DNA from: Psychrobacillus sp. INOP01
Lineage (GTDB): Bacteria; Bacillota; Bacilli; Bacillales_A; Planococcaceae
Assembly (NCBI RefSeq): GCF_018140925.1
Contig: NZ_CP073315.1
Coordinates: 1,426,001-1,490,000, forward strand
Length of the DNA: 64,000 bases
Direction: 5' to 3'
The position numbers and the translations under genes are program-made. Shown one piece after another: positions 10,707-15,061 of the stretch. The notes beneath the pieces are model-generated. The model saw only the letters and a list, made by a program, of their open reading frames with translations. It searched no databases and was not told the DNA's origin. The number at the start of each line of letters is the position of its first letter. The first letter of the stretch is position 1.

Positions 10707-10738
10707 ATGCGTAATAACAAGAAAGTTTTGGTATTTGG

Positions 10739-10758
10739 TTTAGGCCTATTTAGGCCTA
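10739..10758 (+). repeat. 10-bp tandem duplication causing a frameshift
   Basis: The decamer TTTAGGCCTA occurs twice in a row (10739-10748 and 10749-10758), where the intact paralogue has one related unit. It puts the remaining lipoprotein codons out of frame. Loss of one unit by slippage would restore the signal peptide but not the rest of the damaged gene. Confidence 0.85.
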
Positions 10759-10936
10759 ACAGTTATGTTAGGAGGATGTAATATAGGGACGGATAATACA
10801 AAAAGTATTGAAATAGAAACTGAATCAGCAGTACCACCAGGTGAAGAACAAAAAATTTCAATGAACACCAAAAATTTTGTTAAAGTTCAGGATTATAACG
10901 GAGAAGGCTACGCGTTAAGAAATGGTGAGGAAACGA

Positions 10937-11160
10937 TAAGGAGGGAGATCTGGCGATACAACGTCATATCCATGTAATTTTAGCATCCTTGCATAGGGTG
11001 CCAGTAATCTACCGTTTCCACCTGCTCCATGAATTAAAATAACTTTAATTTTAGAACTAGGAACGGACATTCGATCCAGATGGATATAATAATCGTTCCA
11101 TTTCCACCATTCTTCAATAAGAGAAAAAAGAAACTTTTTACCAATGAAAAATTTTCTGAT
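10937..11160 (-). pseudogene. Internal fragment of an alpha/beta-hydrolase gene, inserted antisense
   Basis: On the minus strand this stretch is open for about 75 codons and reads EEWWKWNDYYIHLDRM, then KIKVILIHGAGGNGRLLAPY and HGYDVVSPDLPPY. The HGxGG oxyanion-loop motif followed by LAPYARxL and DLPPY is the classic N-terminal part of alpha/beta-hydrolase enzymes. There is no start codon with a ribosome binding site and no catalytic serine region, so it is a fragment. It lies exactly in the gap of the broken DUF1672 gene, which shows it was brought in by illegitimate recombination. No full-length parent gene is in the window. Confidence 0.75.
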
Positions 11161-12018
11161 GTATCACGCTGTTGCGATTGTACCAATTGATGTAAAAAAT
11201 AAAATAATTGAGACAGACAAAGTGTTTACACAGGCTGGTCAAGTAGAAGATGCTCTAGCCAGTGGATTATATGTAATGGCATATGAAAAAGAAATAGAAA
11301 ATTTGAATAACTTCGTTAACCAAATGTCAAAAGAATATTCTCTAGTAGGAAAAAATAAAGAAGCGGTTCAAAATGTCGGTGGAACAGGATTTTTAACTCC
11401 TTTTTATTTCATAAGTTCTATAGGAGAGACCTTCGATAAGATTAACTCTTTGTACTTAGAGAATCGAAATGTAGATAGAAAAGAGCTAAGAAGTATTTTG
11501 GATGAAAGTAAGTTCAACCCGGATGATGTGAACATCGTATTTAACGTGTTTATGAAAGAAGACAATACAGAGCCAGATGAAAAAGCTTATGATGAAATTT
11601 ACAAGGAGATTGAAACAGCTGAAGGATTTCTTAGAGGATCATATTCTTTTTTAATGCATGATAATTTGATTAACAGTAAATATGGGAGTGGTTCGAAAGG
11701 AAATACTATAGATAAAAATGCAGTGAACGAGATCATGAAAGAATAGATTTTCTACACCTTTAAACAATTGAGAAATAGATATCTCATGAAATCGTACTAT
11801 AGTCGCTATTATTGTTCAATACAATTATTTTCTCTCGTCCTTTATAATTCAAAAGACCTTAATAACAATTAAAAGTTCATAACCTTTCACCTGTTTTTTA
11901 AAAATTCAAACAAAAAATTAGGATTACATTTTCATATCTCTTCTCGTTTTAATACAATTAGTAAATATAGGATATTTGAAATTATTAAGTTTTAACATCC
12001 ACGTGAGGAGGATTTCAT

Positions 12019-12969
12019 ATGCATAAGAACGAGAAAGTCTTGGCATTTGGTTTAGGCATAACAGTTTTGTTAGGAGGATGTAGCATGGGGACGGATAATG
12101 TAAAAAGCACGGATTCGGAAACTGAAACAGTAGCACAAGCTGGTGGAGAGCAAGAAATTGCTATGAACACAGAAAACCTAGTTAGTATTCAAGACTATAA
12201 CGGAGAAGGCTATGCGTTAAGAAATGGTGAAGAGACAGATAAGATTGCTGAAGCTAACCGTGAGGATATTGAAGTAGCGGTTAAAAAATTCTTTAGTGAG
12301 AAATATAAAACCGAAGTAATTGTGCATAATCTAGTAGGTGCTGTGGACGGTGTTTCGGTATTCGTAGAATCGGTAGGCGAACCACATTTTCATACTTTTG
12401 CAATAGTCCCTATTGATGTAAAAAGTAAAACAGTGAAAACGGATGGTGTATGGTCTCAGGAAGGACAGGTAGAAAGCGCCCTATCAGCTGGAATATTTGC
12501 AATGGCATATGAAAAAGAAATAGATAATTTAGACGTTTTTGTAAACCAAGTAATTAAAGATTATCCCGTTGTTGGTAAAAACATGGAAGCAGTAAACAAT
12601 ACTTCGTCAGGATACTATACCTCTCATTACTTTATTAGTGCATTCGATGATATATTCAATAAGCTTAACACTTTATATATGAAGGACCAAAATATAAGTA
12701 AAGAAGAAATAAGAAAATTCCTCGATGAAAGTAAGTTCGACCCTGAGTCAGTTAGCATAACTCTTAACTTTTTTATGAAAGAAGCTAACACTGAACCAGA
12801 TGAGAAAGCTTACGATGAAATTTTAAATAAAATTAAAGAGAGTGACGGTTTTCCAAAGGGCGGCTATGCCTTGATACTTAACGACAACACAATAGACAGC
12901 AAGTATGGTACTAATTCAAATGATAATACTATATCCAAAAATGATTTGAATAAAATCGTGAAAGAATAG
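12019..12969 (+). CDS. DUF1672 lipoprotein, TilA-like immunity candidate
   Basis: A 316-residue lipoprotein. The signal peptide VLAFGLGITVLLGGC ends at a lipobox LGGC, and the mature part carries the DUF1672 signature ENLVSIQDYNGEGYALRNGEE, EKYKTEVIVHNLVGAVDGVSV and EPHFHTFAIVPIDVKSK. In Staphylococcus aureus, DUF1672 lipoproteins (TilA) protect the cell against the type VII secreted lipase toxin TslA. The next gene, 13 bases on, encodes a TslA-like protein, which supports the same role here. An excellent AGGAGGA lies before the ATG. A broken tandem copy precedes it. The immunity role is inferred from family and context. Confidence 0.85.
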   Translation: MHKNEKVLAFGLGITVLLGGCSMGTDNVKSTDSETETVAQAGGEQEIAMNTENLVSIQDYNGEGYALRNGEETDKIAEANREDIEVAVKKFFSEKYKTEVIVHNLVGAVDGVSVFVESVGEPHFHTFAIVPIDVKSKTVKTDGVWSQEGQVESALSAGIFAMAYEKEIDNLDVFVNQVIKDYPVVGKNMEAVNNTSSGYYTSHYFISAFDDIFNKLNTLYMKDQNISKEEIRKFLDESKFDPESVSITLNFFMKEANTEPDEKAYDEILNKIKESDGFPKGGYALILNDNTIDSKYGTNSNDNTISKNDLNKIVKE

Positions 12970-12982
12970 GAGTCGAGCACCT

Positions 12983-15061
12983 ATGACCACTATAAATGAT
13001 GTATCAAACACAGACGATAAGGATTTGGTTGAACTTGCAGGTTATCATTCCTATAAACACTATGAAAGATTCAGTGATATATGGGTTAATGGAAAAAGAT
13101 TTGATGTAATTCATACAAAATACAATTCTGTATCTGGTTTAGATGCATTAACCGTTAAGAATTTTGAAACAAAAGAAATTTCCATTGTATTCGTAGGAAG
13201 CGAACAGTTAGACAAAGACTGGCTCGGTACAAACACTAAGCTAATTGGCACAGTCCCACCACAGCAAATTGAGGACGCTAAAATATATTTCCAGCAAATG
13301 AACGATAAATACGGAGAAATTTCTTCTGTCTCCGGAAATTCACTTGCTGGTGCTTTGACAAATGCAGTGGCAATCGACAATCCACAGGTGAAAGCAGTGA
13401 CGCTTAATCCTGCTATTCTTCCTTTTGGTATGGTCGATTCTAGCGAAGAATATCCTAATATTACAAATTACTATAGTAAATATGATTTTCTTACTGGGAC
13501 GGAGGAATCTCTTGGTTTAGGTGATCGGATTCCTGGAAACAAACATGGGATAAATAATGGCGTTCCTCTCTTTTCGATGCTTGGTTCTAATCACACAGGC
13601 TATATAGAAGCGGATGAGAATGGCGAATTCAAAATTGAAGTAGGAGTAAAAGGTCAGCCGGGGCATGGATTTATCTATATTGGAGCTGATGATCATATTG
13701 TCACGAGCCTTTGGACTGGTTCCCCTTTATATGGTGGTCAAACGGAAAAAATTGTTTTAAACAAAGAAAATTTGCTACTGCTATCAAACGGGATTCAAGA
13801 TCAGGTAAAAGGCAGAATTACGAATGTACAAAACTATCTAAACAACTCCGTAAGTATTGTCTTAGATGAAAGTATGCAGTTTAGCACTCGCGTAACAGTC
13901 TTACAGCAAACCTTTCAAATGATGTTTGATGAAACTGCGGGAGATCCTTTATTCAACGGAATCTCCAACACGGGTACCCTTATTAAAGGATGTATCGACC
14001 ATTTAATTACTCTATTAGACGCTGCTGAAGCTAAATGCAGAATACTAAATTCTATCTTGAACTCTAAACCTGCAGAAATAATAGAATTTATTGCTTCCAT
14101 AAATATTGATGTAGAGAGCCTCTTTGCTCCTGCAAGAGAATATTTAAACCAGTTAAAAGATGATGTGGATAACTTAGTGAATGGTGCACAAAACATCATC
14201 CAAACATACATACCTGAGCTTTTTAAAGGTGGCAAGGATATGTTTGTAGATGCAGTAGTTGGTGAACTAAATGCGCATTACTCAATCGTTCACAAAAATA
14301 AAGAGGCTGTTTATAACCAATTAACAAACTATGAAAAACAGGTTAAAGATATAGCTACTTCTATGTTTAACAAGGATCAAAATCTGGGAAGCTCTATTCA
14401 ATCAGGGATCTCTCTTGCAGACGGTGTAGATGCTATACAAAAGACTGAAATCATGAATATTGAAAACTCCCCATATTTAACAATAGGGATGAAAATAAAA
14501 GAACTACAGGTTAATCTAGCTCATCAACAATTCACCTCACTAGTAACTACTATATTACAGCCAATTGTTGACAATATTTACCAGATCGCTCTGTTTGTTG
14601 AATCAGCATTATCTTCTATTATTTTTAGAGTTAAAGCTGCTCTTAATGTAGGGCTCTATGGTAATCCAGTTGGTTTATTCATCAGCCTATTTACAGATTA
14701 TGAGCAAAAAATAAAAACAGCAGTTAATAATGCATTTGTTCCTTTAGAGGAGATTAAAACTATTGCAGAAACTGTGCGTATTGGAGCTGGTAGTATGTCA
14801 GCGAATATTCCTGAAATGCTTCAGAACTTTAAGCCTTATATAGATACAGCCATTTTCGAGCCTGGGAAGTTTGATGATGTCAGGCTCTATAACATTTCAA
14901 CTTTAGCTATTCTAGACGAAATGGAAATGCTATTTAATGATATTATCTTTCAATTATCCAATGAAAAAGCAAATGCTATTGAAGCAACACTAGAAGTATC
15001 AAAGAATGTATTGAGCAACCTACAGATATTAAAGGAGCAGGTTAATCGAGGTACACTTTAG
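12983..15061 (+). CDS. TslA-like lipase protein with reversed toxin architecture
   Basis: A 692-residue protein. Its N-terminal third has an alpha/beta-hydrolase lipase-like fold: strand KEISIVFVGSEQ, then the nucleophile elbow SGNSLAG (Ser about 120), strand VKAVTLNPAI, and plausible acid and histidine at YSKYDFLTG (about Asp168) and GSNHTGY (about His204). From about residue 260 it is long, helical and free of Cys, as in LXG-type secretion domains. An N-terminal catalytic part with a C-terminal LXG-like part is the reversed order described for TslA of S. aureus, a type VII secreted phospholipase toxin. There is no signal peptide. It follows a DUF1672 gene by 13 bases. No type VII secretion machinery or TlaA/TlaB-like partner is evident in the window. 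Confidence 0.75.
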   Translation: MTTINDVSNTDDKDLVELAGYHSYKHYERFSDIWVNGKRFDVIHTKYNSVSGLDALTVKNFETKEISIVFVGSEQLDKDWLGTNTKLIGTVPPQQIEDAKIYFQQMNDKYGEISSVSGNSLAGALTNAVAIDNPQVKAVTLNPAILPFGMVDSSEEYPNITNYYSKYDFLTGTEESLGLGDRIPGNKHGINNGVPLFSMLGSNHTGYIEADENGEFKIEVGVKGQPGHGFIYIGADDHIVTSLWTGSPLYGGQTEKIVLNKENLLLLSNGIQDQVKGRITNVQNYLNNSVSIVLDESMQFSTRVTVLQQTFQMMFDETAGDPLFNGISNTGTLIKGCIDHLITLLDAAEAKCRILNSILNSKPAEIIEFIASINIDVESLFAPAREYLNQLKDDVDNLVNGAQNIIQTYIPELFKGGKDMFVDAVVGELNAHYSIVHKNKEAVYNQLTNYEKQVKDIATSMFNKDQNLGSSIQSGISLADGVDAIQKTEIMNIENSPYLTIGMKIKELQVNLAHQQFTSLVTTILQPIVDNIYQIALFVESALSSIIFRVKAALNVGLYGNPVGLFISLFTDYEQKIKTAVNNAFVPLEEIKTIAETVRIGAGSMSANIPEMLQNFKPYIDTAIFEPGKFDDVRLYNISTLAILDEMEMLFNDIIFQLSNEKANAIEATLEVSKNVLSNLQILKEQVNRGTL

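Follow-up and report, generated by a model that had tools for sequence, protein, structure and literature searches.

How does a DUF1672 lipoprotein gene come to carry, in its middle and on the opposite strand, a piece of an alpha/beta-hydrolase gene? The question is raised by the first of two DUF1672 genes in a 64,000-nucleotide stretch of Psychrobacillus sp. INOP01 (G000:C1:1426001-1490000, where G000 is the genome analyzed), which we call the window and whose positions we use below unless a contig or locus is named. In it, DUF1672 copy 1 (10707-11746) is followed on the plus strand by DUF1672 copy 2 (12019-12969) and by the gene of an SA1320-family lipase-like protein (12983-15061, 692 aa). 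An earlier note on this DNA, made from the sequence alone, had described copy 1 as a gene that keeps both of its own ends around a single hydrolase insert. Our comparisons point to a more composite structure, and we consider it probable that copy 1 is a recent pseudogene, produced by illegitimate recombination in a tandem paralogue array and joined via two ectopic fragments.

For these comparisons we used a collection with one genome per species, comprising 18 other Psychrobacillus genomes and 260 other genomes of the family. A DUF1672 gene is present in 7 of the 19 genomes of the genus. The closest named relative of the DUF1672 genes in the window is Psychrobacillus sp. OK028, which has three intact genes at the matching locus (an A-B-C array), and the congeneric genome G014 has one. 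Flanking gene order is conserved in both, with a nucleotidyltransferase-like gene upstream and, downstream, the SA1320-family gene and a gene that, from its sequence, we take to be MutS2.

Both ends of copy 1 do derive from DUF1672. The 3' remnant (11164-11746), which is open to its stop codon, matches PF07901 over profile positions 83-257 (70.1 bits, E 2.4e-19; Pfam cut-off 25 bits). The 5' remnant (10707-10939) has no PF07901 match of its own in the profile search but is alignable at the DNA level, with 77-83% identity to paralogues. The two are, however, not the ends of one host gene. In blastn comparisons with the OK028 paralogues, the 5' remnant starts C-like and then becomes A-like (83% identity to A over 190 bp and 79% to C over 233 bp), whereas the 3' remnant is of the B type (identity 87.7% with OK028 B and 86.3% with the gene of G014, at most 68% with A and C). 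Of the informative sites, 41 are A-like and 20 B-like in the left part, against 30 and 148 in the right part (Fisher p 8e-13), which assigns the ends to different paralogue types. Neither the equal agreement of the left part with A and C (25:24 sites) nor the sequence preceding copy 1, which resembles C (82%) and not A, fits a simple deletion from A to B in an array like that of OK028.

By alignment to single paralogues, the middle missing from copy 1 amounts to about 150 bp. It is thus smaller than the patch of about 230 bp that replaces it, and not equal to or larger than the insert, as had been supposed. Direct fusion of an OK028-like A-B-C array would have removed about 1.1 kb (arithmetic on match ends). 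Of 48 DUF1672 copies that tblastn searches gave at 23 named loci, two are cut by contig ends and were set aside; none of the 46 complete ones lacks the middle, whose replacement would have made a copy appear as two separate hits.

The patch itself is made of two pieces. Piece 1 (10933-11116, minus strand), 184 bp long, runs antisense to DUF1672 and comprises 61 codons of an alpha/beta-hydrolase gene; about seven bases at its low end (10933-10939) are assignable to either side. At the DNA level it is 86% identical to G014, 85% to G017 and 78-79% to G012 and G011. Its translation, with the motifs HGAGGNGR and DLPPY, matches residues 38-99 of an intact 325-aa Hydrolase_4/Abhydrolase_6 protein of G014 at 81% (E 1.2e-31, far beyond chance). 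The hydrolase assignment of the earlier note is thereby confirmed, although not the extent given there, about 225 bases and 75 codons; the stop-to-stop frame around the 61 codons spans 82. The piece is free of stops and has a dN/dS of 0.21 against G014, as would be expected if its source gene had been working until recently.

A parent gene elsewhere in the genome, as the earlier note envisaged, was found neither at the DNA nor at the protein level, be it with the piece itself, with its 51-aa translation or with the full G014 protein. Apart from the patch, the hydrolases of this genome are distant (24-28% with the G014 protein as query; 31-43% over short stretches with the 51-aa piece). The gene is present in 4 of the 18 other congeneric genomes and in 9 of the 260 other family genomes (three candidates scored per genome). 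In G017, its neighbor is an ORF that we take, from its sequence, to be DNA-alkylation-repair-like; at the orthologous place in our genome (G000:C1:759348-760083) a DNA search finds no hydrolase remnant, and the genes of G014 and G012 sit at different places from the G017 site. A tree of ten hydrolase pieces leaves five of seven inner branches open, the pieces being too short to place the patch. As to a plasmid or phage origin, the patch DNA had no match in 72,556 plasmid records and the 51-aa piece none in 50,697 phage records, and we rejected it. Within the genus the gene is decaying: G014 and G012 have it intact, while it looks broken in G017 and, in G011, divided between two frames (L075 5300-6250; L077 6070-7047).

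The hydrolase insert is not the whole of the patch. Across the 18 other genomes of the genus and the 260 of the family (three candidates scored per genome), all hydrolase matches stop at 11115-11117, where a 44-bp match to an unrelated source begins. This piece 2 (11116-11159, plus strand) stems from a small gene's leader and recurs once, 2.3 Mb away at G000:C1:3772320-3772363, with 98% identity (43 of 44 bases; E 1.7e-14 and 3.2e-15). The orthologous leader in G014 is 93% identical to piece 2, and the donor gene in our genome and its G014 locus are 91% identical over 655 bp. At the only position where piece 2 departs from its own locus it has the G014 base, so that the donor locus probably changed after the copying. 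Four bases, TGTA (11160-11163), which by junction comparison belong neither to donor nor to host, follow piece 2. The donor site lies directly after a TATAAT-like box and before a small membrane-protein-like ORF (L004 4280-4700); this ORF has a conserved counterpart in G014 and matches no Pfam family.

We compared the joints for the microhomology to which the earlier note had pointed. Host and donor have ATAA, about four bases, in common at joint 1 (around 10933-10939), where one further base is unassigned. Joint 2 (11116) shows zero to one common base, and joint 3 (11159-11164) has the four extra bases and no exact overlap, with ATTTTC common to donor and host nearby. The joints show no target duplication or element ends that would be signs of a mobile element, and the pieces end inside ordinary genes. 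Pieces 1 and 2 in joined form were found in none of the 18 other genomes of the genus and in none of the 260 of the family (three candidates scored per genome). Three low-homology joints and two unrelated donors, together with the hybrid paralogues of the array, support the proposal of illegitimate recombination in a recombination-prone array.

Copy 1 carries a second lesion, which, like the two paralogue types of its ends, had not been mentioned before. A 10-bp tandem duplication (TTTAGGCCTA x2; 10739-10758, plus strand) appears as ten extra columns in copy 1 only in the alignment with six intact DUF1672 genes and causes a frameshift within the signal peptide; in translation, the reading frame from the ATG at 10707 ends after 24 codons. 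With this duplication in addition to the patch, copy 1 is broken twice, and between them the frameshift and the patch leave it without an intact lipoprotein signal and a full-length frame. An ORF encoding 200 aa (11144-11746) starts at an ATG supplied by piece 2. The dN/dS of the 3' remnant is 0.12 against both B and the G014 gene, with 0.17 between the latter two; this fits a recent lesion, though some remaining function would match it too. Patched copy 1 is most likely a dead gene.

Copy 2 (12019-12969, plus strand) is, in contrast to copy 1, an intact, full-length lipoprotein gene (316 aa; PF07901 118.4 bits, E 4.5e-34). It is a hybrid as well, with 89% identity to OK028 C in its 5' part and 78% to A in its 3' part. 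A change-point test over 209 sites gave p 8e-11, with none of 5000 permutations as strong. The best breakpoint, at gene position 198, lies at the edge of the block with the highest identity among the six intact genes (columns 181-420, 79.7-82.9% vs 64-78% elsewhere), making copy 2 a hybrid gene with its breakpoint at the conserved block. The patch and lost part of copy 1 fall within the same block. Judged from its hybrid paralogues, the DUF1672 array is recombining; reports of this were not found in the DUF1672 literature, as far as titles and abstract openings indicate.

Similar behavior is described for other arrays. According to excerpts of Garrett et al. 2022 (PMC9484751), the tandem T7SS immunity paralogues esaG and tipC recombine homologously at conserved blocks, and earlier work cited there places a crossover of lpl lipoproteins in a centrally located region of about 130 nt; for csa1, excerpts of PMC7360770 report copy number changes through RecA-dependent recombination. 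As these excerpts present them, esaG, tipC and lpl have in common with the present locus tandem paralogues, conserved blocks and hybrids, represented here by copy 2 and the central high-identity block. They differ in that DUF1672 is another family, with a putative immunity role, and in that copy 1 was joined via foreign scraps, with no clean crossover. The hybrid-paralogue pattern of esaG, tipC and lpl is thereby extended to DUF1672 genes beside SA1320-family lipase-like genes.

For copy 1, we envisage a break or a stalled fork in the conserved central DUF1672 block, the usual place of paralogue crossover. No homologous crossover would have resolved the break, and the ends would have been joined through two short ectopic fragments: the 184-bp hydrolase fragment, either from a since-lost copy of the lineage's own or from the DNA of a close relative, and the 44-bp fragment from a gene leader elsewhere in the same chromosome. 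The event may have fused neighboring paralogues (an A/C-like 5' to a B-like 3' part; in an A-B-C array, this would have deleted about 1.1 kb); alternatively, it may have hit a gene that was already hybrid. The break, the machinery, the order of the steps and the loss of function we infer from the remains described above.

Two kinds of machinery could have produced such a patch. One is end joining by Ku and LigD in which fragments are captured, the other short-patch double illegitimate recombination (SPDIR) of single strands. Ku/LigD non-homologous end joining can capture filler DNA. Its likeness to the present case lies in the low-homology joints, the unassigned bases and the ectopic filler, and in the presence of genes encoding Ku (PF02735, E 1.1e-57) and a LigD-type ligase (TIGR02776, E 2.9e-173). 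A search for literature on templated filler in bacteria gave plant or genome-editing work among the matches listed. SPDIR is characterized by microhomology at the joints and by a dependence on single-strand DNA and on the recombination background. The overlaps in copy 1 are about four bases at joint 1, zero to one at joint 2 and none that is exact at joint 3. SPDIR was reportedly the subject of a 2016 PNAS study (113:15066) of naturally transformable bacteria. As mentioned in excerpts of PMC7192050, SPDIR replaces short genome stretches by heterologous intragenomic or extragenomic DNA. The short replacement in copy 1, with 44 bp from within the genome and 184 bp from outside its present content, is alike, but the combination of two different donors in one patch is not. 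A ComEC-type protein is encoded in the genome as well (E 1.2e-53). Such proteins, like Ku/LigD, are widespread, and both kinds of machinery are candidates.

Other explanations of copy 1 have to be weighed against illegitimate recombination in the cell. The patch could be an assembly error or stem from a chimeric library molecule, as library chimeras likewise join unrelated scraps with little homology. Yet the assembly consists of a single 4.30-Mb contig with completeness 100 and contamination 0.21, and the hydrolase piece is not a local misjoin, since it has no source there and shares 85-86% identity with its nearest relatives. Further, the 44-bp piece is one base off its own copy and matches G014 there, as diverged DNA would, and the 10-bp duplication, a second lesion of a different kind, also speaks against an assembly error, which we therefore regard as very improbable. 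Somewhat less remote, though still unlikely, is a patch made beforehand elsewhere and imported by natural transformation via the flanking DUF1672 homology. The hydrolase is absent from the genome, a ComEC-type protein is encoded and the paralogue mosaics show that homologous exchange happens; but the joined pieces occur in no other genome among the family's 261 (three candidates scored per genome), and the higher identity of the 44-bp piece to its own locus than to G014 (98% vs 93%) makes joining in the own lineage most likely.

That the chimera works, either as a 200-aa DUF1672 C-terminal protein from the ATG at 11144, inside piece 2, or as an antisense hydrolase regulatory RNA, is about as doubtful as an assembly error. 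The ORF from this ATG is open and its dN/dS is low (0.12), but a low value is expected of any recent lesion, and with the lipoprotein signal and the N-terminal part cut off, the product would presumably remain in the cytoplasm. The antisense RNA and promoter readings were rejected, as the number of promoter-like sites is what chance would give (9 vs 8.8 expected) and no Rfam family matches up to E 0.1. Least credible of all is programmed diversification by silent-cassette exchange, in which a dedicated system would insert foreign coding pieces. The array does hold hybrid paralogues, but the donors of the patch are not DUF1672 cassettes, the joints lack a common site, the outcome is a broken gene and there is no recurrence in the 46 complete copies at 23 loci.

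We see no new system in this locus but a new example of known processes, in which error-prone repair is clearly recorded. Two-donor patches whose sources can be identified provide a natural record of bacterial break repair and of the decay of immunity-like arrays. Speculatively, the central DUF1672 block might be a natural break site, where failed crossovers let end joining capture scraps of unrelated genes; if this is true, DUF1672 arrays would preserve fossils of past repair, among them pieces of genes since lost.

An immunity role of DUF1672 is suggested by gene position only, and excerpts of PMC5020093 give the DUF1672 lipoproteins of S. aureus as being of unknown function. The putative toxin-like partner in the window, at 12983-15061 on the plus strand, is assigned to the SA1320 family by NF047388 (627 bits, E 3.6e-188) and had no match in a search of solved structures. 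A gene of this family lies near the DUF1672 genes in 19 of 23 loci and is absent from view in L052, L056, L058 and L063, of which L058 ends 0.3 kb downstream of its DUF1672 gene, so that a partner could not be seen there. This neighborhood makes it plausible that the two form a pair of lipase toxin and immunity lipoprotein, in analogy to TslA/TilA. Excerpts of Garrett et al. 2023 (PMC10730906) describe TilA, of the DUF576 family, as a tested lipase-immunity lipoprotein. In the arrangement they present, lipoprotein genes immediately precede a lipase-like gene whose C-terminal part is long; this is also found here, but the lipoproteins are DUF1672 instead of DUF576 and the partner is a putative toxin of the NF047388 SA1320 family. 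The pairing of DUF1672 with the SA1320 family is worth a direct toxin-immunity test.

In other Bacillales, orphan N-terminal, lipase-like fragments of SA1320-family proteins are found among DUF1672 genes (L047 5570-6051; L050 10974-11171 and 12389-12478; L060 8535-8717), a pattern that looks like the duplication and erosion of entire units of lipase and lipoprotein. In Sutcliffiella/Bacillus horikoshii loci (L049 8844-15948; L053 6015-11856), the SA1320-family gene is flanked on either side by DUF1672 genes, which number up to five.
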